From Microbacterium sp. LWH3-1.2 (GTDB lineage Bacteria; Actinomycetota; Actinomycetes; Actinomycetales; Microbacteriaceae): a DNA stretch of 64,000 bases. The first letter of the stretch is position 1; each line of letters begins with the position of its first letter. The translations under genes and the position numbers were made by a program. The DNA lies in assembly GCF_040675855.1 (NCBI RefSeq), contig NZ_JBEGIK010000001.1, positions 1,054,001 to 1,118,000 on the forward strand, written 5' to 3'. The notes beneath the pieces are model-generated. The model was given only the letters and a program-made list of their open reading frames with translations. It searched no databases and was not told where the DNA came from. Below, piece after piece: positions 2,746 through 21,176 of the stretch.

Positions 2746-4023
2746 TCACCGCCCCGGCCGGGCCGCGAACCCTTCGAGCAGCTCGGCGGCGCGCGGCGCT
2801 CCCCCGAGGGACCTGAGCTCGGCGGCGACGCGGGCGGCAGCATCCGTCATCGACCGATCCGTCGAGGCGCGCTCGAAGCCCGCCGCCACCTGGGCCGCCG
2901 TCGGCGTTCCCGTGCGGAGGTCGACGCCCGCGCCGGTCCACGCAACGCGCGCCGCGATCTCGGGCTTGTCGAGGTCGCCGCCCGCGATGACCAGCGGGAT
3001 GCCGTGGCCGAGCGCGGCGAGCGTGCCGCCCCAGCCGCCGTTGGTGATGACGACGTCGGTGGCCGGGAGGAGTTCGTCATAAGGGAGCAACCCCGCGATA
3101 CGCGCGTTCGCGGGGACGGGAAACGGCAGTTCGTCGCGGCCGCGCACGCCCGTCGACACGACGACGAGCACGTCCCGGTCGGCGAGTGCGTCGAGCGCAG
3201 GGCGGATGAGGTCGGTCGGGTCGATGTTCTGCGTGCCCTGCGTGACGTGCACGACGACGCGGCCGTCGAGGTCGCCCCACCATCGCGGAAGGTCGGTCGG
3301 CGCGGCCGGCAGCGCGGTGAGGACGCCGACGAAGTCGAGGTGAGCGGGGCGGTCGGTGCGGGCGAAGTCGAGCAAGGATGACCCGGTGGCGAGGATCCTC
3401 TCCGGCGACAGCACCGTCTGCTCGAATGTCAGCGAGGCGGGCGGCAGGCCGACCGCGACCCGCGCCCGCACGATCGGCTTGGTCAGCGGCCGCATCGCGA
3501 GCGGCGCGATGCCTCGCAGCGCAGCATCGCGTGTCTTCGTGAGCGGATTGCGGCCAGGTGTGAGGCCCATACCGCTCGGCGGCCCCTGCCGGCTCGTGAG
3601 GTGGAGCGGCAGCACGGCGACGGTCGCCCGCGGACAGCCGGACCGGTCGGCGAAGAGAGCCGCGCCGATGGAGGTGTCGTCGGTGACGAGCGCGTCCCAG
3701 GGCTTGCGGTCCCACTCGGCCTGCAGATCGGCGACCTGCGCCGGGGCGGTGTTGATCATGACGTCTTCGAGGTTCACGAAGACCTGCCGGAGGCCCTTGC
3801 GGCCCTCGAGTCGCGGGAAGGTCGCGCGCAGATCGTTCTCGTCGAAGTCGGGTGCTTCGCTCCACGGCACGAGAACGGCTCCGGATGCCTCGACCCCCTC
3901 GCGGAACGCCGCTCCGGTGTAGAAGCGCACGTCGTGACCGCGCGCGACGAGTCCCTGCGCGACAGCCCGCAACGGCGTGACATGCCCGGTGAAGGGCATC
4001 GCCGTCACCAGGAATCGGGTCAT
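2746..4023 (-). CDS. GT1-family (MGT/UGT-like) glycosyltransferase
   Basis: The 425-residue product resembles macrolide-type glycosyltransferases that move a sugar from a nucleotide donor to a small acceptor. The N-terminus MTRFLVTAMPFTGHVTP is the usual first beta strand and glycine loop with the catalytic-type His. The C-terminal donor-binding half contains VVVHVTQGT and then ITNGGWGGTLAALGHGIPLV, the UGT signature region, followed by the acidic DLDKPEIAARV segment. The start at 4023 was chosen because family homology begins there; an in-frame extension upstream to 4230 is Arg-rich and unlike the family. A fragment homologous to its first ~30 codons lies at 17.5 kb. Donor and acceptor cannot be deduced. 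Confidence 0.86.
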   Translation of the reverse strand: MTRFLVTAMPFTGHVTPLRAVAQGLVARGHDVRFYTGAAFREGVEASGAVLVPWSEAPDFDENDLRATFPRLEGRKGLRQVFVNLEDVMINTAPAQVADLQAEWDRKPWDALVTDDTSIGAALFADRSGCPRATVAVLPLHLTSRQGPPSGMGLTPGRNPLTKTRDAALRGIAPLAMRPLTKPIVRARVAVGLPPASLTFEQTVLSPERILATGSSLLDFARTDRPAHLDFVGVLTALPAAPTDLPRWWGDLDGRVVVHVTQGTQNIDPTDLIRPALDALADRDVLVVVSTGVRGRDELPFPVPANARIAGLLPYDELLPATDVVITNGGWGGTLAALGHGIPLVIAGGDLDKPEIAARVAWTGAGVDLRTGTPTAAQVAAGFERASTDRSMTDAAARVAAELRSLGGAPRAAELLEGFAARPGR

Positions 4024-4700
4024 TGAGACATCGTGTCGCAACCGGGGGAGCGTGCACCAGGGGCCCGCGTGCGGCAGCCGGGGCCTCGGTAGGTGGTGCG
4101 CGCGGTTCGGCGTCGCGGAGCCACGGTTGTCAGTCGAGACCGGCGGTGTAACCCCCGTCGTCGGGGGACGCCTGCATCGGCGGCCGCTGCGGCCAGCTCG
4201 GTGCGTCGAATCAACTGAGGCGTCCCTCACATATGTGGCTCGGCAAGCCGGGACACCCCCGCCTCACAACCCACGTTCTAGGCGAGGGGAGGCCCCGACT
4301 CAACACGCCATAGCGTCTAGTCACCGCGCTGTGGGCTGGCGGGTTCGAGGTCATCCCCGACCGGGGCGAAACCGTCCGATCGACGGCCGAGGCACACGAA
4401 AACGCCAGCCCATCACCGACCACATCGATGACGCTTTTGATGACATTTCGCGGAAATGTTGAGGAAATGATCGGCTGGTAGCTTCATCCCGTACCTCTCG
4501 TCGCGGCCAATCGCAATAGAGAGAAGGGTCACAGTTCGTGACCGAAGCGTTGCTTCATCCCCACCTCAACCGAGCGTCTTGGCGGATCCTTCTCTTCACG
4601 GCACTTCGACGAGCAGGCCTTCGTTGGCGATCGGTGCGCCACGAGGCAACATCGGTCAACCCTGACTGGTGTTCCTCTGGTGACTCATCGAAGGAACCCA
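4024..4700. other. Gene-free stretch between glycosyltransferase and ABC importer
   Basis: No convincing gene is seen here. The sequence is the divergent upstream region of the glycosyltransferase and the sugar importer, and is somewhat richer in A and T after 4230. It holds one good palindrome at 4443-4459. A GTG-initiated frame at 4538 follows an AGAAGGG, but it runs through the importer signal sequence in another frame and has no recognisable content. No tRNA, insertion sequence or remnant of the TetR gene found beside the second glycosyltransferase copy was detected. Confidence 0.6.
4443..4459. promoter_or_regulatory. 17-bp palindrome, candidate operator of the ABC importer
   Basis: The sequence ACATTTCGCGGAAATGT has perfect 7-bp arms around a GCG spacer. 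It lies 242 bp before the lipoprotein start in an A/T-richer patch. Sugar importers of this kind are commonly controlled by LacI, ROK or DeoR repressors that bind such sites. No regulator gene is adjacent, so the assignment is inference. Confidence 0.4.
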
Positions 4701-5840
4701 ATGAAACTGTCACCAATCAGAGCTGTGGTCGCATCCGCCGCAGCGATCACACTTACCGTCGGGCTGACCGCCTGCTCGTCCGGGAGCACAGCAAGCACAT
4801 CGAGCGATGGCTCGCGAGAGGTCGTGCTGTTCATGCCGACCTCCGCGCACCCCTATGTCTCGAAGCTCATCGACAACGCAAGGTTGACCCTCGAAGAGGA
4901 CGACTTCTCCGTGACGGTCATCGAGAACAACTTCGACCAGGCGGAGCAGGACACCCAGGTGCAGCAGTACCTCGCATCCGGCGACAAGCCGGCGGGCATC
5001 TTGTGGTTTCCCTCCGACGCCCAGGCGAGTATCGCTTCACTCAGCCGGCTGAGCGGCCTCGGGGTGCCGATCGTACAGGTGAACCAGCGGCCGCTGCCGG
5101 AGTCGGAAGACTATTTCACGGCCTTTGCTGGCATCAGCGACCTCGTCGCCGGGGAGAACATCGGCAACGGGCTGATCGCCGCACGTGACGCGATGGAGGC
5201 CGACGGCAAGCAGCTGCACTCACCAGGTGGCAACGTGCTCGTCGTCACCGGTCCCGTCGGGTTCGGCGCATCGATCGACCGCATCACCGGGTTCGAGGAG
5301 GCCACCGCGGGCGCCGGCTTCAACGTCCTGGCGACGATCAACTCCCCCGCTCTGACCCCGGACGCGACTTACACCGAGGTGTCCCAGTCGCTGCAGGGCC
5401 CCCTCGCGGAAGGCATCGACCTCGTCTTCACCTTCAACGACGATGTCAGCACCGGCACGCTGCGAGCGCTCACCGAAGCCGGCCTCACGCCAGGCGTCGA
5501 CGTGGCGGTCTCCAACGGCGTCTGCAACGGGCGGGGCACCGCGACCAGCTCGGGCGACGTCTTCTCGACAGTCGCCCAGAGCCCCGAGTATGAGGGCACC
5601 CTCAGCGCATCCGTGTTGAAGACTCTCATCGGCAACGGCGGCGAGCTGAGCGACGAGGAGACTCACCAACTCCCCGACGACGCCGACGCGGTTCCCGACC
5701 TCTCGTTCACGCCGGCGAAGTACAACTACGTTCCGCTTCCCCCGATTATGGGGGCCTTCGACGATCCGGCCGCGAGCGCCGAGAACGTCGCCGCCTTCAA
5801 GCTCTGGGGACAGGGCGTCGACACTCTCTGCGACTTCTGA
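4701..5840 (+). CDS. Sugar-type ABC importer substrate-binding lipoprotein
   Basis: This 379-residue protein begins with a lipoprotein signal peptide ending in LTAC, so Cys25 would be lipidated and the mature protein anchored outside the membrane. A GAAGGA lies about six bases before the chosen ATG. The rest matches the periplasmic-binding-protein type 1 fold of the ribose/autoinducer group (pfam13407 type): VVLFMPTSAHPYVSKLIDNA near the start, and GSGDKPAGILW-like and VDVAVSNGVCNGRG regions in the two lobes. Members bind monosaccharides, nucleosides or related small ligands. It heads an operon with a double ATPase and two permeases. No sugar kinase or hydrolase is linked, so the ligand is unknown. 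Confidence 0.9.
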   Translation: MKLSPIRAVVASAAAITLTVGLTACSSGSTASTSSDGSREVVLFMPTSAHPYVSKLIDNARLTLEEDDFSVTVIENNFDQAEQDTQVQQYLASGDKPAGILWFPSDAQASIASLSRLSGLGVPIVQVNQRPLPESEDYFTAFAGISDLVAGENIGNGLIAARDAMEADGKQLHSPGGNVLVVTGPVGFGASIDRITGFEEATAGAGFNVLATINSPALTPDATYTEVSQSLQGPLAEGIDLVFTFNDDVSTGTLRALTEAGLTPGVDVAVSNGVCNGRGTATSSGDVFSTVAQSPEYEGTLSASVLKTLIGNGGELSDEETHQLPDDADAVPDLSFTPAKYNYVPLPPIMGAFDDPAASAENVAAFKLWGQGVDTLCDF

Positions 5841-5976: not shown

Positions 5977-7521
5977 ATGAGCATCCAGCACAAGAGAACG
6001 ACCCAACCACCTCGCCCGGTCTACCAGTCGCGGACTCTACTGAAGGTCGAAGGCCTGACGAAGTCGTACGGTCAGACCCAGGCGCTCGACGGCGTGGACT
6101 TCGAGCTGCGCGCTGGGGAGGTTATGGCGCTCCTCGGCGAAAACGGCGCCGGGAAGAGCACGATGGTGAAGACCTTCGGCGGTCTGGTCCAGCCCGACGG
6201 CGGCACGATCACGATCGCCGGGCAGACTCACCAGATCGGTAGTCCGCTGGAGTCGCAGCGCGCGGGGATCGCGATCGTTCAGCAGGAGCTGAGTCTCGTC
6301 GAGACTTTGAGCGCGGTAGAGAACATCTTCGTCGGAACACGGCTGTCCGGCCCGTGGAGCCCTCGCCGTCTGGCGGTGCTCGCGCGGCCGCACCTCGAGC
6401 TCGTCGGTCTCGAGGAATGGAAGTGGTTCGTGCCCGTCGCTCAGCTGACGATCGCGGAGCGACAGCTGATTGAGATCGCGCGGGTGGTGTCCCGGGAAGC
6501 GCGGATCATCGTCTTCGACGAGCCGACCGCTGCCCTCGCCGACGTCGAGACGGAGCGTGTGCTCGGTGTGGTGCGTCGCCTGGTCGATGCCGGGCACGGC
6601 GTGATCTACGTCACGCACCGTCTTCGCGAGGTCTATGAGATCGCCGACCGCGCCACCGTGGTGCGCGGTGGGCGCAGTGCCCCCCCGGTGCTTATCGCCG
6701 ACACCCCCCTGCCCGATCTCGTCGAGATGATGCTCGGCCGATCGCTCGGCAGCATCTACCCACCAAAGGCCAACCTGAAGGGCGCCGAGGCGCGGATGAC
6801 GATCGTGGGCCTCCGCACCGCGGAGATCACGACCCCGGTCGATCTGACCGTGAGACGGGGCGAGATCGTGGGGCTGGTCGGGCAGATCGGCTCGGGCGCG
6901 CCGTCCCTCGCGCGAAGCATCGCCGGGCGGGACGACGTGCTGGCGGGCTCCATCCGCATGGGCGACGAGGAGATCGCCGCGACATCCGTTCGTTCCGCCA
7001 TCAAGGCAGGGATCGCGTATTGCTCCGACGACCGCAAGCGGGATGGCTTCTTCTTCTCGTTCACGGTGACCGACAACTTTGCTTCGACCGCGCTTCGCTC
7101 CGTGTCACGGTGGGGCTGGTACCGGCCCCGGGTCGCCAGGGCGCTCGCGCGGTCGCTGGCGTCGAAGATGAACGTCGCCCACGAGCGGCTCGGTACAGCG
7201 GTCGGCGCATTGAGCGGGGGGAACCAGCAGAAGGTCGTGCTCGGCAAGTGGCTCGCGATCAACCCTCGCGTGCTCCTGATCGAGGAACCGACCCGCGGGG
7301 TCGACATCGGTGCCCGCGCGGAGATCTACACGGAGCTGCGGCGCCTGGCTGACGAGGGGATCATCGTGGTCTTCGCGTCGTCCGATACCTCGGAGGCGCT
7401 GGGGCTTGCCGACACCGTCCTCACGTTCTATCGAGGCGCCTTGGTGCGCTCGGCCCCGGCGGCGGAGCTCGACGAGGTACAGCTGCTCATCGACGTCACT
7501 CACGGGAAGGTCGCCGCATGA
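5977..7521 (+). CDS. Sugar-type ABC importer double ATPase (RbsA/MglA-like)
   Basis: The 514-residue protein has two ABC cassettes in tandem, as in RbsA and MglA. The first has Walker A GENGAGKSTMVK, Walker B IIVFDEPTAAL and a diverged signature LTIAERQ. The second has a degenerate P-loop GQIGSGAPSLA but a good signature LSGGNQQKVVLGKWL and VLLIEEPTRGVDIGARAEIY. One canonical and one degenerate site is the family norm. The ATG at 5977 follows a short A-rich leader. The stop overlaps the next permease start by ATGA, implying translational coupling. It should drive uptake of the ligand bound by the upstream lipoprotein. Confidence 0.93.
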   Translation: MSIQHKRTTQPPRPVYQSRTLLKVEGLTKSYGQTQALDGVDFELRAGEVMALLGENGAGKSTMVKTFGGLVQPDGGTITIAGQTHQIGSPLESQRAGIAIVQQELSLVETLSAVENIFVGTRLSGPWSPRRLAVLARPHLELVGLEEWKWFVPVAQLTIAERQLIEIARVVSREARIIVFDEPTAALADVETERVLGVVRRLVDAGHGVIYVTHRLREVYEIADRATVVRGGRSAPPVLIADTPLPDLVEMMLGRSLGSIYPPKANLKGAEARMTIVGLRTAEITTPVDLTVRRGEIVGLVGQIGSGAPSLARSIAGRDDVLAGSIRMGDEEIAATSVRSAIKAGIAYCSDDRKRDGFFFSFTVTDNFASTALRSVSRWGWYRPRVARALARSLASKMNVAHERLGTAVGALSGGNQQKVVLGKWLAINPRVLLIEEPTRGVDIGARAEIYTELRRLADEGIIVVFASSDTSEALGLADTVLTFYRGALVRSAPAAELDEVQLLIDVTHGKVAA

Positions 7522-8489
7522 TCCAGGTCACAGATAGCCGCGTGGCTCCGATCCGACCCACGGCGTTGCCGCTCCACCTTGCGCCGGTCGTCGTGCTCGC
7601 CGTTGCTCTCGTCGTGTTCGCGCTCACCACTCCGGCGTTCGTCAGCTTCGGAAACGTCATCGCGATCGTCAATTCGGCGACGCTCACCGGGATCGTCGCC
7701 GTCGGACTCACGTTTGTCACCATCTCCGGGAACTTCCTCCCGCTGTCGGTCGAGCAGTCCGCAGCGATGTCGGCGGTGACACTGGCCATGATGCTCGCCG
7801 CAGACATCCCCGCATGGGTCGGCGTCATCGCCGCTCTTGCCGTCGGCATCGCGATCGGGATGCTGCAGGGCTTGATTGTGAGTCTGGGCGCCAACCCGCT
7901 CGTCGTCACGCTCGCCGTGGGGGCTGCGCTGGCGGGGCTCGTCGTCACCGTGACCGGGGGCAAGACGATCACGTTCCCCGCGGTCGAGTTCTTCGGCGAC
8001 ATGATCGTGTTCGGCATCCCAGTGCAGACGTACGTCTTCGTCATCGTGACCGTGATTCTCACGATCTACAGTGCGCGGTCGCGGTCGGGACGTGCGATCC
8101 GGCTGCTCGGTGAGAACCGCCTCGCCGCCCGTGCGACGGGGATCTCCGTGCGCGCCACGACGATGCTCGCCTTCGGGCTCGCTGGTGTGACGGTCTCGCT
8201 GGTGTCGATCCTGTCGGTCGTGACGTTCGATCGCGCGAACGCGACCCAGTTCTCGGGGCTCACGTTCGACGCGATCGCCGCCGTGCTCATCGGCGGGACG
8301 GCCATCCGAGGCGGCCACGGATCGCCGCTTCGCTCGGCGATCGGTGCTGTCTTCATCGCGCTGCTGATGAACGTCATGCTCCTGCGCGAGTGGAGCTACG
8401 GTTACCGACTGCTCGTGGAGGGCATCGTGGTCATCGCAGCGGTCAGCATCTATCGGGTTCTATCAGCACGGAAAGAGATCAGGAAATGA
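7518..8489 (+). CDS. Sugar-type ABC importer permease 1 (RbsC-like)
   Basis: This 323-residue membrane protein has eight to ten hydrophobic segments, and the cytoplasmic coupling loop TGISVRATTMLAFGLAG lies near residue 215, as in RbsC-type permeases. The family phrase FDAIAAVLIGGTAIRGGHGS occurs near residue 255. It overlaps the ATPase upstream and the second permease downstream, each by ATGA. Two different permeases imply a heterodimeric channel, as seen in AI-2 (LsrCD) and nucleoside-type importers rather than ribose importers. Ligand unknown. Confidence 0.9.
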   Translation: MIQVTDSRVAPIRPTALPLHLAPVVVLAVALVVFALTTPAFVSFGNVIAIVNSATLTGIVAVGLTFVTISGNFLPLSVEQSAAMSAVTLAMMLAADIPAWVGVIAALAVGIAIGMLQGLIVSLGANPLVVTLAVGAALAGLVVTVTGGKTITFPAVEFFGDMIVFGIPVQTYVFVIVTVILTIYSARSRSGRAIRLLGENRLAARATGISVRATTMLAFGLAGVTVSLVSILSVVTFDRANATQFSGLTFDAIAAVLIGGTAIRGGHGSPLRSAIGAVFIALLMNVMLLREWSYGYRLLVEGIVVIAAVSIYRVLSARKEIRK

Positions 8490-9508
8490 CCACGACCGCC
8501 ATGCGCATGCGCCGGCGACTGAGCGTTCCATGGGTTCAGCTCATCATCCTTGCCCTCGTCTGGGTGCTGTTCATCGCGGTCGACCCTCGATTCGCGAGCG
8601 TCGACCGCGTGTTCGGGGTTCTGCAGGGGTTCGCCTTCCTCGGTCTCATCGCCGCTGGTGTGGGCATCACGATCATCGTCGGCGAGCTCGACCTTTCGGT
8701 GGGTTCTATGGCCGCCGTGGGGGGCGTAGTGGTCGTGAGCGCGCTTCCCCTCGGCATCGTCCCCGCGATCCTGCTGGCGACCGCGATCGGCGGGGTGTTC
8801 GGACTGGTGCAGGGGCTTCTGATCGCGCGGCTGCGCATCAGCTCGCTGGTCTTCACGATCGGCAGCATGTTCGCCCTCCGCGGCCTTGCGAACGTGATTG
8901 CGAACGAGCAGGTGGTTTCGGTGCCCATCGACCAGCTCGGAGTGTCCAACGCCCTGATCTCTCGGATCGGAATCATCTCCCCCTTCAGCCTTGTCACCAT
9001 CCTCGTGGTGGTGGCGGTCGGGTTGTTCCTCGCCTACTCCCGATTCGGCCGCGAGCTGTACGCCGTCGGAGGTGGCCGCAGCGAGTCGCGTGCGGCGGGG
9101 GTGCCCCAGTTGCGACCGATCGGGATTGCGTTCCTCGGCTCAGGCGCTCTGGCCTCCCTCGCCGGAGCGCTCTCGTCGATCGCTTCCGGAAGCGGTGCGC
9201 CGTTCGCCTTCGAGCCGGTGCTGGTCTCCGCCATCACGGCGGCGCTCATCGGGGGCCTCGCGATGGGCGGCGGAAAGGGCGGCATGGTGAACATCGTGCT
9301 GGGTGCGCTCATTGTCTCGACGTTCACCGCCGGCCTGTCCCTCAACGGCGTGCCGGCGAACGTGCAGCAGCTTGCCATCGGGGCGCTGCTGCTCTTGATC
9401 ATCGTCGTCGACGTGCTGCGGGACTCCCATTCCGCGTGGCTGACCAGACTCCTCCTCCCGGGCAGACGGACTTCTCTGGATGTCGTGCAGGCGGGTTCGA
9501 CGCAGTAG
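8486..9508 (+). CDS. Sugar-type ABC importer permease 2 (RbsC-like)
   Basis: The start at 8486 overlaps the previous stop by ATGA and follows AGGAA, giving 340 residues. Hydrophobic segments run through most of the protein, with GELDLSVGSMAAVGG near residue 65, ESRAAGVPQLRPIGIAFLGSG in the coupling loop, and VSAITAALIGGLAMGGGKGG near residue 250, all family hallmarks. It closes the importer operon, which ends in a strong hairpin shared with the convergent molybdopterin operon. It probably pairs with permease 1 as a heterodimer. Confidence 0.9.
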   Translation: MTTTAMRMRRRLSVPWVQLIILALVWVLFIAVDPRFASVDRVFGVLQGFAFLGLIAAGVGITIIVGELDLSVGSMAAVGGVVVVSALPLGIVPAILLATAIGGVFGLVQGLLIARLRISSLVFTIGSMFALRGLANVIANEQVVSVPIDQLGVSNALISRIGIISPFSLVTILVVVAVGLFLAYSRFGRELYAVGGGRSESRAAGVPQLRPIGIAFLGSGALASLAGALSSIASGSGAPFAFEPVLVSAITAALIGGLAMGGGKGGMVNIVLGALIVSTFTAGLSLNGVPANVQQLAIGALLLLIIVVDVLRDSHSAWLTRLLLPGRRTSLDVVQAGSTQ

Positions 9509-9587: not shown

Positions 9588-10046
9588 TCAGCCGATGGCG
9601 TTGACCCACTCCGTCGAGCCGTCGCCGAAGTGCTGCTCTTTCCAGATCGGAACGCGCTCCTTCACCAGGTCGACGAGCTCCGCGCAGGCCTGGAACGCCT
9701 CACGCCGGTGAGCGGAGGCGACCACGCACGCGAGCGCGCAGTCGCCGATCACGAGGTCACCGGTGCGGTGCACCACCGAGACGGTCACGGCGGGGTACTG
9801 CCGGGTGATCTCGCGCGCGACCTGGAGCACAGCGGCGCCCGCGGTCGGATGCGCGCTGTACCTGAGCGCCGTCACCGGCCTTCCCTCGTCGTGGTCGCGA
9901 ACCACCCCCTCGAACGTGACCACTGCGCCGTCCTCGATCCCGACGAGATCGTGCTGCAGCGCCTGAGCTCCGATCGGAAGGTCGGTCACGCCGGCGAGCA
10001 CGACACGGCGCTCGTCGGCGGATGCGGGTGTATGTGCCTCAAACAT
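9588..10046 (-). CDS. moaE: Molybdopterin synthase catalytic subunit MoaE
   Basis: MoaE with MoaD inserts two sulfurs into cyclic pyranopterin monophosphate to give molybdopterin. The 152-residue protein carries VTFEGVVRDHDEG, SVVHRTGDLVIGDCALACVV, SAHRREAFQACAELVD and LVKERVPIWKEQHFGDG, with the conserved HR and K of the active site and the Trp-Lys phrase near the end. It is the last gene of the ten-gene operon and overlaps mogA by 8 bases. Length and motifs match the family. Confidence 0.95.
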   Translation of the reverse strand: MFEAHTPASADERRVVLAGVTDLPIGAQALQHDLVGIEDGAVVTFEGVVRDHDEGRPVTALRYSAHPTAGAAVLQVAREITRQYPAVTVSVVHRTGDLVIGDCALACVVASAHRREAFQACAELVDLVKERVPIWKEQHFGDGSTEWVNAIG

Positions 10047-10548
10047 GATGCCTGCTCCGTGTCGTGATGGGTGGGCGGACGCCGAAGAACTGGTCGAGGA
10101 GGTGCCCGATGAGGGGCGCTAGCACCTGGAGCCCGTCGGTGACGCCGGACGGGGAGCCTGGCAGATTCACCACGAAGGTGTCTCCGGCGAATCCGGCGAG
10201 ACCCCGGGAGAGCGCCGCGAGGGGTGAGGATTTCGCACCGAGGGATCTGATCGCCTCAGGAATGCCGGGCAGCTCCTTGTCCAGATGCGGACGTGTCTGT
10301 TCCGGTGTCACGTCCGTCTGGCTGACCCCGGTGCCGCCCGTGGTGATGACGATTCGCACTCGATCGGCGATGGCGTCGAGGAGGGCTTCGCCGACCGGGT
10401 CGCCGTCGGCCACGACTCGCACGTCGGGCCGCCATCCGCGCTCGGCGAGCCAGCCGGCGATCACGGGACCGGTCTCATCGGTCGTGCGGCCCTGTGCGGC
10501 CGACGTCGACGCGACGACCACGACAGCCGCGTTCACAGGCGGGTCCAC
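10039..10548 (-). CDS. Molybdopterin adenylyltransferase (MogA/MoaB family)
   Basis: This 169-residue protein should adenylylate molybdopterin before molybdate insertion by MoeA. The conserved MoCF-binding loop ITTGGTGVSQTDVTPE is at about residues 88-103, and NLPGSPSGVTDGLQVLAPLI near the end is the second family block. It overlaps moaC by 16 bases and moaE by 8 bases, so translation is probably coupled. MogA and MoaB cannot be separated reliably from sequence alone. Confidence 0.92.
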   Translation of the reverse strand: MDPPVNAAVVVVASTSAAQGRTTDETGPVIAGWLAERGWRPDVRVVADGDPVGEALLDAIADRVRIVITTGGTGVSQTDVTPEQTRPHLDKELPGIPEAIRSLGAKSSPLAALSRGLAGFAGDTFVVNLPGSPSGVTDGLQVLAPLIGHLLDQFFGVRPPITTRSRHHV

Positions 10549-11012
10549 GTTCCCGAGCGCCCGCCCGACTTCTCGACCAAGCGCAGGTCGACGATGCTGG
10601 CGGAGCGGTCGACGCCCTTGATCATGTCGTAGACGCTGAGGGCGGCGACCGCGACCGAGGTCAACGCCTCCATCTCCACACCGGTGCGGCCCACAGTCGA
10701 CACGGCGGAGCGGAGCACGATCCTGTCGACGTCGATCGTGGCGTCGACCTCGACCGCGGTGATCGGCAACGGGTGGCAGAGCGGGATGAGGCGGCTCGTC
10801 TCCTTGGCCGCCATGATTCCGGCGAGGCGGGCGACGCCGATGGCCTCCCCCTTGGGGAGTTCGCCGTCTGCGATCAACTCGATCACGTGGGGTCGCGTCA
10901 CCACGGTTGCCTCGGCCACCCCGCGCCGGGCCTTTACTGCCTTTTCTCCGACGTCCACCATGTGGGCGGCGCCGTCCGCGCGCAAGTGCGTCAGTCGCAT
11001 ATCTTCACTCAT
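10533..11012 (-). CDS. moaC: Cyclic pyranopterin monophosphate synthase MoaC
   Basis: MoaC acts with MoaA in converting GTP to cyclic pyranopterin monophosphate. Starting at 11012, after GGAGG, the protein has 159 residues. LTHLRADGAAHMVDVGEKAVKARRGVA opens the fold, IPLCHPLPIT carries the catalytic His-Pro region, and GVEMEALTSVAVAALSVYDM with KGVDR is the other conserved patch. An upstream in-frame extension is Arg/Ser-rich and overlaps moeA, so it was rejected. The start overlaps the end of moeA by 8 bases. Confidence 0.95.
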   Translation of the reverse strand: MSEDMRLTHLRADGAAHMVDVGEKAVKARRGVAEATVVTRPHVIELIADGELPKGEAIGVARLAGIMAAKETSRLIPLCHPLPITAVEVDATIDVDRIVLRSAVSTVGRTGVEMEALTSVAVAALSVYDMIKGVDRSASIVDLRLVEKSGGRSGTWTRL

Positions 11013-12255
11013 CGATCCTCCAGAACTCGACTCTGTCGCCGACGCTGATCGTCGTCGTCTCGGGCGGGATGAACGCGAGCAAGGTCGACCGTGCGTACGC
11101 GTGCAGAAGGTGGGATGCCGTGCCCCCCTCGAAGTGGATGCGGCCATCGTGCGCCTGGCGGCCGCGCCGCACCTGCAGCTTGCCGGCGGGCGACTGGGCA
11201 GCTTCCGCTAGCGGCGCCGTCGACGCGGGCCGGTACGCCCACCGTCCGGTCGCTGCCAGCAGCGCCGGCCGCAGGAACACCTCCGCGCTCACGAGGGCGC
11301 TCACGGGGTTGCCCGGCAGCGCGACCACCGGCAACTCTCCTCCGGCGAGCTGCACGATCCCGACGCCTTGTGGGCCTCCCGGCTGCATCGCGACCGTGCC
11401 GAACTCCACTCCGCGTGGCGCCAGGCAGTCGCGCACGACTTCGTGCGCGCCTCGACTCACACCTCCCGCGGTGATGACCAGATCGACCTCGCCACAGCAC
11501 GACTCCAGCAGCCGCATGAGTTCGCGCGGGTCATCCGGAACCGGCCCCCGCTCAACCACCCGGACACCGAGAGGCGTCAGCAGAGCGCCCAGCATGAGCG
11601 TGTTGGCGTCGAGGATCGTGCCGGGCCGATCCGGATCCCCGGATCTCCTCAGCTCGGAGCCGGTTGCGATGACGAGCACCCGGAGCGGGCGCTGCACGGC
11701 GATGCGCTGAACGCCGGTCGCGGCGAGCGCGCCCACGAGGGCGGGTGTGACCGGACTGCCGACCGAGCCGACCGGATCGCCTGCGCGCACGTCGGAGCCC
11801 CGAGCGCGGACGAACCTGCCGACCGGGCTCGGCGTCGTGACTGTGAGGATCGCGTCGGCGTCGCGGGCCGGGAACGAAGTGAATCCGCTCTCCTCGATCG
11901 GGACCACCGCATCGGCTCCGCCGGGGATGGGGGCCCCGGTCATGACGGCCCACGCCTCGCCGGCCCCCACCTGCCCGCCGTGCTCTCCAGCGGCGAGGTG
12001 TCCCATCACCCGCAGGTGCGCAGGCCGCTGTGGCGTCGATGACCGGACGTCGGCGGAGCGGATCGCGAACCCGTCCATCTGGCTGTTGTCGAAGGCCGGC
12101 AGCTCCGCGGCGGCGGGCACATCGGATGCAAGCGAGCGTGGGGGGCCAACGGCGACGTCGCGCAGCTCCACAGTCTCGGGGGTGCGGGCGATCCCGGCCA
12201 CGAGCTGGGCCACGATCGCCCGATGCACGTCGACTGGTCGGTTCGTGAATGTCAT
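11005..12255 (-). CDS. moeA: Molybdopterin molybdenumtransferase MoeA
   Basis: MoeA inserts molybdate into adenylylated molybdopterin. The 416-residue protein shows the order expected for the family: N-terminal LPAFDNSQMDGFAI, then GAPIPGGADAVVPIEE, VLVIATGSEL, TAGGVSRGAHEVVRD, and PLRVVALPGNPVSALVS-like VALPGNPVSALVSAEVFLRP near the C-terminus. Length is typical. It lies between moaA (29-base gap) and moaC (8-base overlap). No second moeA copy or molybdate importer is present in the window. Confidence 0.95.
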   Translation of the reverse strand: MTFTNRPVDVHRAIVAQLVAGIARTPETVELRDVAVGPPRSLASDVPAAAELPAFDNSQMDGFAIRSADVRSSTPQRPAHLRVMGHLAAGEHGGQVGAGEAWAVMTGAPIPGGADAVVPIEESGFTSFPARDADAILTVTTPSPVGRFVRARGSDVRAGDPVGSVGSPVTPALVGALAATGVQRIAVQRPLRVLVIATGSELRRSGDPDRPGTILDANTLMLGALLTPLGVRVVERGPVPDDPRELMRLLESCCGEVDLVITAGGVSRGAHEVVRDCLAPRGVEFGTVAMQPGGPQGVGIVQLAGGELPVVALPGNPVSALVSAEVFLRPALLAATGRWAYRPASTAPLAEAAQSPAGKLQVRRGRQAHDGRIHFEGGTASHLLHAYARSTLLAFIPPETTTISVGDRVEFWRIDE

Positions 12256-12284
12256 TCGTCGTCCTCGGGTGTGGTGGATGCGGG

Positions 12285-13349
12285 TCAGCCCCCGATGGCG
12301 CTCATCGATCGCTCGGGCTGCACGAAGTCGGCGCTCGAAAGACCGACCGTCTCGGATCCATGCGCGCGTGGCTTCGTGTACATGGCCTCACGCCAGCGCT
12401 TCGCGATCTCGGCGTCTGTCGCGCCTGCGCGCATCTCCGAGAGCAGATCGGTTTCCTCGTGGGAGAACAGGCACGACCGCACGCGGCCCTCGGCCGTGAC
12501 GCGCGTTCGCGTGCAGGCGGCGCAGAAGGGTTCGGTGACCGAGGAGATGAGCCCGATCCTGCCGAGCGCGGGAGATTCAGGGGACTGCCTACGCCGCCGC
12601 ACCTCGAACAGCTCGGCCGGTGCCCCGCCGCGCAGTTCGGGAGCGGGCGAAAGGGTGAACCGGGTGGAGAGCAGCATCCGGATCTCGGAGGCCGAGATCA
12701 TCCGGTCCTCGCGCCAGGCCCGGTCGCCATCGAGCGGCATGTGCTCGATGAATCGGAGTTCGTGACCCTGGTCGATCGCCCACTCCAGCAGGTCAGGTGC
12801 CTCGAGATCATTGACGCCGCGCAGGAGCACTGCATTGATCTTGATGGGCCCGAAGCCCGCTTGTGCTGCGGCACGGACGCCGTCGAGCACACGATCGAGG
12901 AAGGGACGGCGCGTGAGCGTGGCGAACGTGTCCGGGTGGAGCGAGTCGAGAGAGACGTTGATCCGCGTCATCCCCGCGTCGCGGAGGTCCTGCGCGCGAC
13001 GGTCTAGCCCGACGGCGTTCGTCGTCATCGAGATCGGCAGCACCGGGCATTCCTCGCGAATACGGGAGACGACGAACTCCAGATCCTGGCGCACGAGGGG
13101 TTCGCCCCCGGTCAGTCGGAGCTCCCCGACGCCGAGGTCGTGATGCCCGATCGCGACCAGGCGGGCGATCTCGTCGGCCGTCATCAGCATGCGCTGGGGA
13201 AGCCATGCCATGCCCTCGGCGGGCATGCAGTATGTGCACCTCAGATTGCACTTGTCGATCACGGACAAGCGCATGTCGGTCGCGACCCGACCGAAGCGGT
13301 CGACGAGCCCAGCGGCGCGGGTGCGTGGGATGCCGATGTTCAGGGCCAT
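12285..13349 (-). CDS. moaA: GTP 3',8-cyclase MoaA (radical SAM)
   Basis: MoaA is the radical SAM enzyme that rearranges GTP in the first step of molybdenum cofactor synthesis. The 354-residue protein has the N-terminal cluster motif CNLRCTYC, the SAM-binding LRLTGGEPLVR, and the C-terminal second-cluster motif FCAACTRTRVTAEGRVRSC. It ends in the Gly-Gly tail needed for activity in known MoaA proteins. The start follows AAGGAG. It is complete, and it sits 40 bases after moeB and 29 bases before moeA in the operon. Confidence 0.96.
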   Translation of the reverse strand: MALNIGIPRTRAAGLVDRFGRVATDMRLSVIDKCNLRCTYCMPAEGMAWLPQRMLMTADEIARLVAIGHHDLGVGELRLTGGEPLVRQDLEFVVSRIREECPVLPISMTTNAVGLDRRAQDLRDAGMTRINVSLDSLHPDTFATLTRRPFLDRVLDGVRAAAQAGFGPIKINAVLLRGVNDLEAPDLLEWAIDQGHELRFIEHMPLDGDRAWREDRMISASEIRMLLSTRFTLSPAPELRGGAPAELFEVRRRRQSPESPALGRIGLISSVTEPFCAACTRTRVTAEGRVRSCLFSHEETDLLSEMRAGATDAEIAKRWREAMYTKPRAHGSETVGLSSADFVQPERSMSAIGG

Positions 13350-13389
13350 GCCACTCCTTCAGAGGGGGAAGACATCGTTCGGCTCCCGG

Positions 13390-14529
13390 TCAGTACCGGG
13401 CGATCGTGGAGTCGACAGCTGCCGACCACTCGTCGATGCCGCCGTGCAGGACGTGGACGTCGGGACGTCCGTTCGCGTTCAGGATCTCCCGCGCGAGACG
13501 TGCCCGGCTGCCGCGGTGGCAGTGGACGACGATCGGCAAGTCGGGCAGTGCGGTGATCGCGTCCGGGTCGAGCTCGGCGAGGGGGATCCCGACAGAGCCC
13601 TCGATGCAGGCGATCTTCCGCTCCCAGTCCTCGCGGACGTCGAGAAGGAGGAGGCTGTCGGGCTGGTGAAGCCGGAGCCTCAACTCGGACACCGATATCC
13701 ATGAGATGAGGTCGTGTGGTGAGTCGGGGACCGGCTCTGCGGGATGACGATCGATGCCCGTCGACGAGGCCTCGTCGTTCCGGCGGCGCACTCGGATCTC
13801 GACCGTCGATCCGTCGACCGCGTCGATGCTGAGCATCCGGCCGAGCAGTGGCTCGCCGAGGCCGACGATCATCTTGACCGCATCGGCCGCCATCCATGAC
13901 GCGACAACCCCGCACAGCGGTCCGAGCACGCCTGCCGTCGCACAGCTGAGGGCGCTGGCCGGGGGCTCGTCCGGGTAGAGGTCCCGAAGCGTGACTCCGA
14001 GGGGCGAGTGCGACCAGAACGTCGCGACCTGTCCGTCCGTGTCGAGCACGGTCCCCCACACGCACGGGAGCCCCAACTCGGTGGTCGCGTCGGAGACGAG
14101 ATAGCGCGTCGCGAAGTCGTCGGTCCCGTCGACCACGAGATCGTACCCCTCCAATACCCGTCGCCAGTTGCGGCCGTCGAGACGCTCTCGATGGCCGACA
14201 GCCCTCACATGGGGATTGGCGCGCGCGATGCTCGCGAGGGCGGACTCGACCTTGTGCTGTCCCACAGTGAGGTCGTCGTGCACGATCTGACGGTGCAGGT
14301 TCGACTCGGCGACCAGGTCGTCGTCGATGACCCCGATCGTGCCCACACCGGCCCGAGCAAGGTAGGCGATCACAGGAGAGCCGAGTCCACCGGCCCCGAC
14401 GACGAGTACCCGTGCCGACTTCAGCCGTAGCTGGCCACGGTGACCGATCGAGCTCATGGCGATCTGCCGAGAGTAGCGGGTGAGCTCAGCGGCGCTGAGC
14501 GGCGATGCGCGGTGAGCGAGGGGGATCAT
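13390..14529 (-). CDS. MoeB/ThiF-type adenylyltransferase with C-terminal rhodanese
   Basis: This 379-residue protein should adenylylate the C-terminus of MoaD and pass sulfur to it. The E1-like domain holds VLVVGAGGLGSPVIAYLARAG and DDDLVAESNLHRQI, with the DGTDDFATRYLVSD region. From about residue 275 there is a rhodanese domain with the active-site phrase VVHCHRGSRARLA, whose Cys is intact. The arrangement equals MoeZ/MOCS3 (MoeBR). The start at 14529 is four bases after the moaD stop; longer upstream starts overlap moaD. Having its own rhodanese means the operon supplies its own sulfur relay. Confidence 0.93.
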   Translation of the reverse strand: MIPLAHRASPLSAAELTRYSRQIAMSSIGHRGQLRLKSARVLVVGAGGLGSPVIAYLARAGVGTIGVIDDDLVAESNLHRQIVHDDLTVGQHKVESALASIARANPHVRAVGHRERLDGRNWRRVLEGYDLVVDGTDDFATRYLVSDATTELGLPCVWGTVLDTDGQVATFWSHSPLGVTLRDLYPDEPPASALSCATAGVLGPLCGVVASWMAADAVKMIVGLGEPLLGRMLSIDAVDGSTVEIRVRRRNDEASSTGIDRHPAEPVPDSPHDLISWISVSELRLRLHQPDSLLLLDVREDWERKIACIEGSVGIPLAELDPDAITALPDLPIVVHCHRGSRARLAREILNANGRPDVHVLHGGIDEWSAAVDSTIARY

Positions 14530-14533
14530 CGAC

Positions 14534-14794
14534 TCAGCCTCCGGCGAACGGAGGGAGGACATCGAGCTCGTCCTCGTCGCGGAGCATCGCATCGCGGGTC
14601 GCCGCGAGTCCGTTGACGAGAAAGCTGCTGCGGGCGATGACCGCGCTCCGCTCCAGTCCTGCGGCGACCAGAGCCTGGGCGATCGTAGTGCCGTCCGGGA
14701 TGCCCCAGGTCGCCTCGCCAGAGCCGACCTCGGCCTTCGCGGCGGCGAAGAACCGCACCCGTACGGTGGAAGCGGCGATGGATGTCTTGTTCAT
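14534..14794 (-). CDS. moaD: Molybdopterin synthase sulfur-carrier subunit MoaD
   Basis: The 86-residue ubiquitin-like protein carries the sulfur as a thiocarboxylate on its terminal Gly-Gly, used by MoaE. It has the early VRVRFFAAAKAEVG strand, SSFLVNGLAATRDAMLRDEDELDVLPPFAGG-type end (the last residues being PPFAGG), and the expected size. It lies three bases after the reductase stop and four bases before moeB. Confidence 0.95.
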   Translation of the reverse strand: MNKTSIAASTVRVRFFAAAKAEVGSGEATWGIPDGTTIAQALVAAGLERSAVIARSSFLVNGLAATRDAMLRDEDELDVLPPFAGG

Positions 14795-14797
14795 GTG

Positions 14798-15760
14798 TCA
14801 GAGCTCCAGGGTCAGGGATCGGGTGAGCGACCGCGATACACAGACGAACATGCAGTCGTTCGCCGCACGCTCGTCGTCCGACAGGATCGAGTCGCGATGG
14901 TCGGGCTCGCCCGCGAGCACGACCATCTCGCACGACCCACACGTGCCCTCGCCGCACGAGTTCGGAACGGGGACGCCCGCTTCCAGCAGCGCGCGCAGCG
15001 TGGTCTTGTCGGGTGGCACCTGCACGGTCTGGCCGGTCGGCTCGATGATCACCTCGAATGGCGCCTCGCCTGCGGGCGCCTGGACCACACGTGGTGTGAA
15101 GCGCTCGACCGTGAGCGAGACGCCGTTGTTCTTCGCGATCGTCTCCATGGCCTCGATCAGACCCTCCGGTCCGCAGCAGTAGAAGTGGTCGCGTTTGTTC
15201 TCCGTCACGTACGAGGCGAGATCGACCCGTCCCCGCATCGACGACTCAGCGAGCACGACCTGCGCCCCCAGGTCCTCCAGCTCGGAGGCGAAGGGCATCG
15301 TCGCCCGATCCTTCCCGAGGTAGAGCAACCGCCAGTCTTGGCCCGCAACCGCAGCGGTGGCGATCATCGGGAGGATCGGAGTGATCCCGATCCCGCCCGC
15401 GACGAAGTGGGGTCGCGCGGCGGGCTCGAAGCGGAACAGGTTGGCCAGTCGGATCACTTCCACGCAGACGCCCTCGTGCAGCTGCTCGTGGACGTGTCGG
15501 GAGCCGCCCCGTCCGTCCTTTACGAGGGCCACGGCGATGCGCCACACGTCCCGTGCGGTGGGGTCGCCGCAGAGCGAGTACTCGCGGATCATGGCTTCTC
15601 CGTCCAGGTGGAGGGCGATGTGCGAACCGGGCGTCCACTCGGGGAGCATTCCGCCGTCGGGACGGCGGAGCTCGAGGACGGCGACACGATGGGCGATGAA
15701 CGTTCGTTTGGCCACGACCAGCTGAAGCGGGTCGTGGAAGATCTGAGTATCTGTTGACAT
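14798..15760 (-). CDS. PDR-like flavin reductase with C-terminal [2Fe-2S] ferredoxin domain
   Basis: The 320-residue protein has the modular order of phthalate dioxygenase reductase: a flavin-binding barrel with REYSLCGDP, an NAD(P)H-binding domain with GGIGITPILPM and YCCGPEGLIEA, and a C-terminal plant-type ferredoxin domain with CGEGTCGSC and the fourth Cys in FVCVSRS. Such proteins move electrons from NAD(P)H through flavin to the iron-sulfur cluster and then to a partner oxidase or reductase. No oxygenase is in the operon. The only candidate acceptor is the MOSC protein two genes upstream, so I infer it is that protein's electron donor. It lies three bases before moaD. Confidence 0.92.
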   Translation of the reverse strand: MSTDTQIFHDPLQLVVAKRTFIAHRVAVLELRRPDGGMLPEWTPGSHIALHLDGEAMIREYSLCGDPTARDVWRIAVALVKDGRGGSRHVHEQLHEGVCVEVIRLANLFRFEPAARPHFVAGGIGITPILPMIATAAVAGQDWRLLYLGKDRATMPFASELEDLGAQVVLAESSMRGRVDLASYVTENKRDHFYCCGPEGLIEAMETIAKNNGVSLTVERFTPRVVQAPAGEAPFEVIIEPTGQTVQVPPDKTTLRALLEAGVPVPNSCGEGTCGSCEMVVLAGEPDHRDSILSDDERAANDCMFVCVSRSLTRSLTLEL

Positions 15761-15822
15761 GGTGGAGTTGCCAGGAGGCGAAGACCATCCGGTGGCGACG
15801 CAATCGTCGCCACCGGAGAGGT

Positions 15823-16257
15823 TCATGCGTTCGCCGTGATCTCGACCTCGAACCGCTGTCCCTCGAAGGCGAGCGCGGGGACGCCTATCGCCGTCCACAC
15901 CGAGTAATGGTTCGGCATCAGGGTGGCGAAGGTCGCGATGACCGCCTCGATCGCCTCGCCGTCGATGGTCGAGGCGCCAGCCGGGATCGTATGGTAGGTG
16001 CGCACGGCGAACACGTCCTCCCACCCGGCGCCTGCAGCCTCGAGCACTTCGGTCACGTTGACGAAGGCCTGGGTGATCTCGTCCTGGATCGACTCCGGGA
16101 GTGAGAGATCGACACGATGTCCGGTCTGACCCGACAGTTCGATCCTGTGCCCGGCCCGGTAGGCCGCCGCGACGTGGAACTGGTCCCTGATGGCGCGCCC
16201 AGTGGTGCCCTCCGGCGCGACTATTTCGACGGGTGCCGACTTGGTGAGTGTGGTCAT
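15823..16257 (-). CDS. Rid-family (YjgF/YER057c/UK114) protein without the RidA arginine
   Basis: The 144-residue product has the Rid fold hallmarks: IELSGQTGHRVD, FVNVTEVLEAAGAGWEDVFAVRTY and a C-terminal FEVEITANA. RidA hydrolyses reactive enamines and imines to carbonyl plus ammonia using an Arg in the phrase PARS. Here the equivalent is PNHYSVW, with no Arg, as in the subfamilies whose activity differs or is unknown. Its place between the MOSC protein and the reductase suggests it handles a product of that pair, for example an imine. The C-terminal half is otherwise intact and the length is usual. Confidence 0.88.
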   Translation of the reverse strand: MTTLTKSAPVEIVAPEGTTGRAIRDQFHVAAAYRAGHRIELSGQTGHRVDLSLPESIQDEITQAFVNVTEVLEAAGAGWEDVFAVRTYHTIPAGASTIDGEAIEAVIATFATLMPNHYSVWTAIGVPALAFEGQRFEVEITANA

Positions 16258-16345
16258 TTCTGATGCTTCCTGCCTATTGCGAGTTGGATGAGCGCGCCGT
16301 GTCGCCTCGGGATGTGGCGACGGCGACGCGGGGCGGGTCGTTGGC

Positions 16346-17284
16346 TCAGAAGCCGAGATCCAGGGCGGGGGCGAGTTCGACGGAGACTGAGACGTCTGAG
16401 CCGATCGAGATCTTCCCGGGCTTGGTGATGTTCGAGTAGATGCCGAGGCAGGCCCAGTCCCCGAACGGCTCGACGACGCGAGTGTTGTGCTTCACGAGAC
16501 CGCGGAGCGTGGCCCGGTCGAGAGGAAGATCCTCCCGCGGCAGGGTCGTCATGATGCAACGAACGGTGTTCATGATGACCGTCGATGTGGTCTCTCCCAG
16601 GTGGATGCTCTTGCCCACCCAGTCGGACTCGATGAACCCCGGTTCGGTGGTCTCGAGCAGGAAGTTCGGGCGGTACCGCCTCGGGTCGTACGTCGCGTCG
16701 GGGTTGATCGACTTCATGTGGTCCAGTGAGGAGGTCGTCATCAGATGCAAGTTGCCGAGGTCGTACGAACGACCCTCAGCGCCGTACAGGTCGAAGTCGA
16801 TCTGGTGCTCTCCATGCTCGTTCGTCGAGCCCATCTGACGGAAGGCGTTGTCGCCGAGCATCTCGTGCCAGATCATCTCGGCTTTGGTGCTCGGAACGTT
16901 CTCCATGGTCGACAGGTGGACGTCGATCCCGAGCGCCGCACTCAGCGCCTGGTCGATGCCGTCGTCGTCACTCCTGACGACTCTTCCGTCCGGGAACGTG
17001 ATCGCGATGGGCGGTATCTCGCCGCCAACGCGCGGCTCCTCGACGTACGCCGCGCGGAGAGTGAGCATCTTGGCCCACTTGCGCGGATTCTTGCTGTTCG
17101 CGATCTTGCCGGTGGCAGTCTCGAAAACCGCCCAGAGGTGGTCTCCGACGAGACCTTTCTCATCGAGTTCGCACTCGGTGAGCTCCTCGCCTGTCATGGA
17201 CTTGACGGGATAACGGAAGATACGCTGCACCTTCCCGACGGAAACCGTCGCCGCAGTCGCCAGGGTGTCACTCATAGCAGGCAT
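16346..17284 (-). CDS. MOSC-domain molybdoenzyme resembling mARC/YcbX
   Basis: This 312-residue protein has an N-terminal MOSC beta-barrel half (RIFRYPVKSM, residues 22-30, then GLVGDHLWAVF) and a C-terminal MOSC half with RRYRPNFLLET and NTVRCIMTTLPRED. In mARC and YcbX proteins the RCxxTT Cys is the molybdenum ligand; here it is Cys243. Those enzymes reduce N-hydroxylated compounds such as amidoximes and N-hydroxylated bases with Mo-molybdopterin. YcbX carries a fused ferredoxin; this protein lacks it, and a separate reductase with a ferredoxin domain is encoded nearby. An AGAGGG precedes the ATG at 17284. It is the first gene of the cofactor operon. The substrate is unknown. Confidence 0.88.
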   Translation of the reverse strand: MPAMSDTLATAATVSVGKVQRIFRYPVKSMTGEELTECELDEKGLVGDHLWAVFETATGKIANSKNPRKWAKMLTLRAAYVEEPRVGGEIPPIAITFPDGRVVRSDDDGIDQALSAALGIDVHLSTMENVPSTKAEMIWHEMLGDNAFRQMGSTNEHGEHQIDFDLYGAEGRSYDLGNLHLMTTSSLDHMKSINPDATYDPRRYRPNFLLETTEPGFIESDWVGKSIHLGETTSTVIMNTVRCIMTTLPREDLPLDRATLRGLVKHNTRVVEPFGDWACLGIYSNITKPGKISIGSDVSVSVELAPALDLGF

Positions 17285-17405
17285 GTCATACCCTCTTTCG
17301 GAGTGGAACCGACCGCGCAGAGGGTTTCAGACAGTTGCAAAAGCATGAGAAGGATCCCTCGGAACGGCTTGGTTCAGATGTGGATTGAAGCTGGCGCTTC
17401 GATCA

Positions 17406-17612
17406 CTAGGGCCGTGATCCTTCTCTCGCCCGGGCGCCCTGCCGTGGGAAGAGGTACGAGCTCGACAGTAGCCGCGCAACATTTCGCGCACGTTTCAGCT
17501 CCGTAAGCACGGTGTGGCCGTGTGCGACGAGTCCCTGTGCGTCGGCCCGCAACGGCGTGACATGCCCGGTGAAGGGCATCGCCGTCAGCAGGAATCTCGC
17601 CATCTGTAACAT
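17406..17612 (-). pseudogene. 5' remnant of a second glycosyltransferase gene
   Basis: Positions 17510-17603 align with the first ~30 codons of the glycosyltransferase at 2746-4023, with about 12 differences in 94 bases by eye. The frame reads MARFLLTAMPFTGHVTP and AQGLVAHGHTV, then leaves homology and stops at 17406. The remainder of the gene is absent. It stands next to a TetR gene, so the pair may once have been a regulator and its target. Divergence from the intact copy is too great for a recent duplication. Confidence 0.75.
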
Positions 17613-17681
17613 TGTGGCCCCGCTCGCGAGGCTGCGCAGGGGGCTCGCGCGGGGCGGAGGGAGGCGGTGCGTCGGCCGGGG

Positions 17682-21064: not shown

Positions 21065-21176
21065 GCATCCATGAGAACAAATCTTCGAACTCAAGTCAAG
21101 GCTCGCGCGACCGTGTCTAGAACATCGACGGGACGGATGCCGCGTGCCTGGCCAAAACGGGCCATCACAGGTCAGA

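Follow-up and report, generated by a model that had tools for sequence, protein, structure and literature searches.

A structured RNA leader shared by a mARC-like MOSC operon and a ribose-type importer on a rare gene island in Microbacterium

Human mARC1 works with cytochrome b5 and its reductase, and Escherichia coli YcbX and the fused YcbX of Vibrionales combine MOSC_N and MOSC domains with electron supply through [2Fe-2S] and flavin, all-in-one fused forms having been reported from Vibrionales (PMC10637980). On the plasmids pAO1, pAL1 and pLDW-10, an extra set of moa and moe genes for the molybdenum cofactor (Moco) stands beside one catabolic molybdoenzyme of nicotine, quinaldine or other heterocycle pathways. 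Here we describe a 64,000-nucleotide stretch of the 3.94-Mb genome of Microbacterium sp. LWH3-1.2 (the window; G000:C1:1054001-1118000) that carries, on the minus strand at 9588-17284, ten genes for a mARC-like MOSC protein, a Rid-family protein, a reductase of the phthalate dioxygenase reductase (PDR) type and a cofactor set consisting of MoaA, MoaC, MoaD, MoaE, MoeA, MogA and MoeB-rhodanese. The operon extends the mARC/YcbX kind in that enzyme, separate PDR reductase and cofactor set lie in one mobile cassette. Compared with human mARC1, to which the MOSC protein is 20% identical, the candidate electron donor is a PDR-type [2Fe-2S] flavoprotein, and dedicated cofactor genes and an RNA leader are present; unlike in YcbX, the ferredoxin and flavin domains reside on a separate protein. 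The first-pass annotation of this DNA had taken the ten genes as the whole system, an extent that is too short, since a conserved leader lies upstream of the operon and the same leader precedes a nearby ATP-binding cassette (ABC) importer (Table 1). This undescribed RNA, common to operon and importer, is the more surprising part of the locus, and a search of the open-licence literature found no publication on either cassette or leader.

An alignment revealed a conserved stretch upstream of the MOSC gene in all five cassettes, namely those of the window, genome G590, Microbacterium sp. SORGH_AS_1204 (M1204; locus L013), TPD7010 and Leaf288, and the same stretch precedes the importer; in six of six cases the element lies 168-210 bases ahead of the start codon. 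Its layout comprises an A box, GUACCUCU(C), the P1 loop, a B box, GAGRGAAGG, the hairpins P2, P3 and P4, and a C box, and the invariant boxes GUACCUCU and GAGRGAAGG partly form an inverted repeat. A hold-out covariance model (R2), built from the M1204, TPD7010 and G590 leaders only, was searched against 74 sources totalling 1.44 Mb; at E < 0.01 it returned the three training leaders, the importer leader (41.3 bits), the leader of the window's cassette (36.9 bits) and that of Leaf288 (22.3 bits, E 3e-4), and the next match had an E-value of 0.33, E-values of such models being rough. The best E-values were 0.059 in the 77 loci without a cassette and 0.068 in 0.8 Mb more of the window's genome, with no further copy in the 43% of that genome examined. 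Two of the leaders, searched against plasmids, found no match. Likewise, Rfam gave no match at its gathering thresholds anywhere in the window and, for four of the six leaders at E-values up to 10, snoRNA and viral elements only, far below their cut-offs.

The pairing pattern in the six leaders points to a structured RNA. In the alignment made with the model, 97.5% of 118 cells pair and two-sided changes occur at 8 pairs (14 cells); of these pairs, P2 and P3 account for seven of the eight, P1 for one and P4 for none. Within P2 and P3, 100% of cells pair and 7 of 11 pairs show two-sided changes, whereas P1 shows little covariation, a point to which we return. The observed percentage, cell count and covariation score were reached by none of 500 shuffles, the pair count by 3 of 500 and the number of pair types by 184 of 500, and sliding the structure along the alignment gave 35-49% pairing. 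The arms of P4, which were chosen by eye, pair in 27 of 27 cells. The leader thus has the conserved, covarying structure expected of a riboswitch, as judged from six sequences, three of them close kin, in an alignment whose fitting to the structure biases the pairing figures upwards. When folded in isolation as 105-111 nt, five of the six leaders form P1-P2-P3; at 105 nt the G590 leader also does so, and the importer leader then pairs its B box with its C box.

These alternative pairings make mutually exclusive leader states plausible. The B box, GAGRGAAGG, would have two possible partners, namely the upstream A box, GUACCUCUC, with which it forms helix P1, and, in part of the leaders, the downstream C box, with P2-P4 enclosed. 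In particular, the full leaders of the importer, the window's cassette and M1204 fold with the B box paired to the C box around P2-P4, and matches as good arose in 5, 1 and 0 of 500 shuffles, respectively. The A box, in turn, matches the Shine-Dalgarno region, with shuffles reaching values as low in 2 of 1000 cases for M1204, 1 of 1000 for TPD7010 and 0 of 1000 for G590 (38 of 1000 for the window's cassette), so that a read-out through this region is clear in the three related leaders only. The simplest model would be a translational switch that senses a substrate, a product or the state of the cofactor. The shared leader probably controls importer and MOSC operon together, and we tentatively propose, as a possibility short of a probability, that it belongs to a so far undescribed class of riboswitches, which would bind either an N-oxygenated compound, taken up by the importer and then reduced by the mARC-type enzyme, or the reduced product; both the ligand and the direction of control are what we infer. 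If this were true, the leader would be an RNA sensor for an N-oxygenated compound and would offer a route to what an enzyme of the mARC family reduces in nature.

Several observations weigh against a ligand-sensing switch. Besides the scant covariation of P1, the best fold of the full leaders omits P1 in five of six, and the fold energies of the isolated leaders are mostly no lower than those of shuffles (z -0.35 to -1.95; Leaf288, -3.51). The match between B and C boxes is not rare in shuffles of the TPD7010 (108/500), G590 (104/500) and Leaf288 (53/500) leaders, and that between A box and Shine-Dalgarno region does not exceed shuffles in the importer (371/1000) or Leaf288 (260/1000) leaders. 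A broader model, R1, also scores two sequences without apparent relation, a viral contig fetched by its boxes (L139, 5.8e-4) and a plasmid stretch (L118, 0.0062); a two-box scan of viral contigs yielded seven stretches, L139 among them, that fold without the P2-P3 pair and were taken as chance. It is possible, if somewhat doubtful, that the leader instead serves as the binding site of a regulator that recognises RNA or DNA and acts on both transcripts, as the partial inverted repeat of the invariant boxes and the clear two-state pairing in only part of the leaders would suggest. The complete pairing and two-sided changes of P2 and P3 argue for an RNA element, with which an RNA-binding protein is still compatible, and the steady placement ahead of the start codon also weighs against this reading.

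That the leader senses Moco or molybdate, matching cofactor supply, is unlikely. Moco riboswitches are known (PMC10043782), six of the seven leader-controlled genes next to the MOSC gene make Moco, and the leader resembles the Moco riboswitch and other leaders of this type in being a covarying multi-hairpin element with alternative pairings before cofactor genes. However, it differs from the Moco riboswitch in lacking an Rfam match (even at an E-value limit of 10, the four leaders tested gave no hit to that family) and in also heading an importer of the ribose type, whose connection to molybdenum is not evident; ligand binding here is a proposal.

The operon itself is largely as first annotated. 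All ten open reading frames are present, each product matches its expected Pfam family, and the ten genes are likely to form a single operon because neighbours are spaced by -16 to 88 bases; the start codons given for the reductase (15760) and MoaC (11012) are the most likely ones and our choice. The MOSC protein (312 residues) consists of MOSC_N (3.7e-9) and MOSC (1.8e-7) domains only, both above the Pfam cut-offs, and has no C-terminal ferredoxin domain of the YcbX kind. Its fold matches that of mARC1, and the proposed cysteine motif is borne out: Cys243 lies within RCIMTT, is conserved in every one of the 28 sequences aligned and, in a profile alignment of sequences, falls on the RC of mARC1, whose Cys273 is the molybdenum ligand (PMC10637980). 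As had been claimed, the [2Fe-2S] domain is carried not by the MOSC chain but by the separate reductase, which has the PDR-type order of flavin, NAD(P) and [2Fe-2S] domains and whose four cluster cysteines are conserved in four of four aligned sequences. The survey for co-occurrence that the annotation had called for found MOSC and PDR genes together in all five cassettes; a Rid gene was without a match in that of Leaf288. In M1204, the reductase gene (L013 11866-12807) is broken by inserted DNA that holds a transposase-like frame. Other MOSC-domain proteins occur in these genomes: a second, different one is encoded about 3 kb from the G590 cassette (L111 6953-7789), and the window's genome encodes two more, at G000:C1:3220758 and 3288037, in frames of 186-187 residues.

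Since MOSC proteins were linked to the formation of Moco in earlier work (PMC1779556) and often occur in Moco operons, the MOSC protein might be a Moco carrier or a sulfur-transfer helper for another molybdoenzyme; its full MOSC_N and MOSC domains with the mARC1 fold, the presence of a reductase in all five cassettes and the absence of any other molybdoenzyme gene from the operon make this quite improbable. That the PDR protein feeds an oxygenase encoded at another site, its place beside the MOSC gene being incidental, is hardly credible: its closest solved relatives are indeed P450-PDR fusions and phthalate dioxygenase reductase itself (2pia, 4.3e-43), which it resembles in sequence and, as a member of the PDR/VanB family would, in domain order, yet its partner here appears to be the MOSC protein with which it recurs in every cassette, and the genome's four Rieske-domain proteins are a small ferredoxin-like one, a QcrA-type one, an Rv3818-like one and a DAO-Rieske protein (P450 genes were not searched for).

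The cofactor genes resemble the plasmid sets. MoaA of the cassette is 60-62% identical to those of pAL1, pLDW-10 and pAO1 (65%, in two pieces, to that of StoSoilB13); the sets of pAO1, pAL1 and pLDW-10, however, serve enzymes of the xanthine dehydrogenase family, with neighbours annotated as ndh, xanthine dehydrogenase family and XdhC, and a gene of the nucleotidyltransferase type is present on pAL1 and pLDW-10, whereas the cassette has no MobA. The latter claim of the first-pass annotation holds, in that none of the ten proteins matches a MobA-like family and all 13 PF12804 matches of the genome fall outside the operon. It rests on these Pfam and genome scans because a tblastn search with the pAL1 and pLDW-10 nucleotidyltransferases, which found relatives in those two plasmids only, was a weak test that missed the genome's own PF12804 region. 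Another moaA, at 46% identity, is present in the window's genome, as are additional genes of the moe and moa kinds at 3.70-3.73 Mb, near a gene for a PF00384 molybdoenzyme, which rules out the cassette as sole source of the cofactor; moaA likewise occurs two or three times in each of the three Microbacterium genomes with named cassettes. A tree of 13 MoaA proteins places the five cassette copies together, with support (78/79) that is not strong, and far from the other copy of the window's genome; next to this group stand the second MoaA copies from M1204 and TPD7010 (66-67%), followed by the plasmid copies. Downstream of moaE in M1204 lie genes of the molybdate-importer kind (we label them Mod). 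On a plasmid of Arthrobacter sp. StoSoilB13 (L118 5434-8132), relatives of moeA, moaC, mogA and moaE occur in cassette order.

The annotation's proposal that the Rid protein hydrolyses an imine product did not survive. RidA-type imine hydrolases have an arginine at position 105 (PMC4433059 and PMC5619798), and the corresponding place is occupied by tryptophan in 10 of 10 aligned rows, in a register that we set. Rid4 and Rid7 proteins likewise carry tryptophan there, and PMC4433059 describes a Rid7 without imine hydrolysis and the functions of Rid4-Rid7 as unknown; imine hydrolysis is thus unsupported, and we reject it. The closest solved chain is YjgH (1.7e-9). The likeness to YjgH/Rid7 and Rid4 is one of tryptophan and of this match and not a formal subfamily assignment, and unlike those proteins the Rid here is fixed in a molybdenum cassette. 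A database search yielded at least eight relatives, the M1204 and TPD7010 copies not among them; three of the eight are on what appear to be the same contigs as close MOSC relatives, matched by size alone (95762, 5767 and 59797), which suggests that Rid travels with MOSC.

The cassette and importer lie on a rare gene island. Thirteen other genomes of the genus have the flanking alpha/beta-hydrolase gene, and four were compared (L129-L132): in L130, L131 and L132 a DEAD-helicase gene adjoins the TetR gene, in L129 another gene lies between them, and relative to L130 the window has about 14.9 kb of extra DNA. A 90-bp direct repeat inside the island frames importer and cassette, which likely arrived together; third-position GC of the island genes (0.80-0.89) overlaps that of the right (0.83-0.96) and left (0.86-0.88) sides, so that composition leaves transfer unproven. 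At the far side of the island, the right copy of the repeat is a truncated duplicate of the 5' end of the glycosyltransferase gene (2746-4230). At E limits of 1e-60 and 1e-40, the MOSC cassette matched 5 of 366 genomes in a genus-level survey and 1 of 299 (the window's own) in a family-level draw, and the importer permease matched 1 of 59 genus genomes drawn, again its own (1e-40). Genus searches centred on the window's genome and on M1204 recovered an identical group of four cassette genomes, judged by coordinates, which places the two in one genus. Among the best 80 loci kept from named genome contigs, some with short stretches, cassette genes lie beside MOSC in three (L012, L013 and L014), whereas in the other 77 the stretches examined contain nothing that matches Rid, PDR or the moa genes. 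Gene order is identical in the window, G590 and M1204 and consistent across two contigs in TPD7010; the Leaf288 cassette is without Rid, most of MoeA, MoaC and MogA. Flanks mostly differ between genomes, with what we read as a nitrate-type transporter gene beside the M1204 and TPD7010 cassettes, in opposite orientation.

Taken with the shared leader, these features lead us to propose, at about even confidence, that the island encodes a regulated module for taking up and reducing a single compound, or a small number of compounds, that contain an N-O bond. The importer, whose binding protein has D-ribose-binding proteins as its closest solved chains, would bring in a small polar molecule; electrons would pass from NAD(P)H through the flavin and [2Fe-2S] cluster of the PDR-type protein to Mo-molybdopterin on Cys243, where the mARC-fold protein would remove oxygen from nitrogen; the seven moa/moe/mog genes would be an extra set that provides this enzyme with Mo-molybdopterin and does so without MobA; an accessory role would fall to the Trp-type Rid protein; and both transcripts would start with the same structured RNA. 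The original interpretation, that of a dedicated N-oxide, oxime or N-hydroxy reduction pathway, is partly supported, and its Rid step falls away. On the other side of the balance, relatives of the importer were not seen near the other four cassettes in the stretches examined, no relative of the binding protein could be placed on the contigs of 17 close MOSC relatives (by size match only), and the other cassettes have no catabolic neighbour in common. A constant link between importer and cassette, unsupported by neighbours or contig matches elsewhere, was therefore discarded. The shared leader nonetheless makes the substrate question testable: a compound bound by the importer or the RNA would narrow the search and give a lead to the natural substrate. 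Hydroxamic acids such as benzoxazinoids are one guess, considered because acetamidase/formamidase-family and ribose-type binding-protein genes are found close to the Leaf288 cassette; the stretches read at the other cassettes hold no such neighbours, and the open-licence literature yielded no paper on reduction of DIMBOA or HMBOA by Microbacterium. The short Leaf288 cassette (L014 188-10674) has as neighbours a PF07090 protein, an NTF2-like frame, members of the acetamidase/formamidase and inositol-monophosphatase families and a ribose-type binding protein.

Table 1 Features of the island, in window coordinates
Feature	Position	Strand	Evidence
Stretch present here, absent between the same flanking genes in L130	2737..17675	.	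junction matches 2633-2736 and 17676-17825
90-bp direct repeat, left copy (glycosyltransferase gene 5' end)	3927..4016	.	81/90 identical to right copy
Structured RNA leader of importer (A box, P1, B box, P2, P3, P4, C box)	4491..4596	+	R2 E 1.3e-10
Solute-binding lipoprotein-like protein, ribose-type (Peripla_BP_4)	4701..5840	+	PF13407 2.7e-29
ABC ATPase, AraG/RbsA kind	5977..7521	+	NCBIfam AraG 8.8e-124, below cut-off
Permease 1, ribose-type	7518..8489	+	NCBIfam ribose permease 1.3e-32, below cut-off
Putative permease 2	8483..9508	+	open frame and position beside permease 1 only; start is our choice
MoaE	9588..10046	-	PF02391 6.9e-30
MogA/MoaB	10039..10548	-	PF00994 (MoCF_biosynth) 6.4e-27
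MoaC	10533..11012	-	PF01967 2.1e-48, scanned as longer frame reaching 11147
MoeA	11005..12255	-	PF03453 2.6e-33; MoeA_N, MoCF_biosynth, MoeA_C
MoaA	12285..13349	-	TIGR02666 1.1e-102, above cut-off; Radical_SAM, Mob_synth_C
MoeB-rhodanese (MoeZ-like)	13390..14529	-	PF00899 (ThiF) 7.5e-67, PF00581 (Rhodanese) 2e-14
MoaD	14534..14794	-	PF02597 (ThiS) 5.5e-10; C-terminal GG
PDR-type reductase: flavin, NAD(P), C-terminal [2Fe-2S]	14798..15760	-	PF00111 (Fer2) 4.8e-15, PF00970 (FAD_binding_6)
Rid-family protein, Trp replacing Arg105	15823..16257	-	PF01042 (Ribonuc_L-PSP) 2e-13; YjgH 1.7e-9
mARC-like MOSC protein, Cys243	16346..17284	-	PF03476 and PF03473; fold match to mARC1
Structured RNA leader of MOSC operon	17345..17457	-	R2 E 3.6e-9
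90-bp direct repeat, right copy	17507..17596	.	81/90 identical to left copy

Beyond the island, the window encodes at 19346-21538 (minus strand) a Radical-SAM-like protein with an insert of about 197 residues after CVYC that is intein-like by sequence pattern; the insert begins CVHPDTQVLMADG and ends VISHN before CFARG, and a similar one is present in the relatives L129 and L130.

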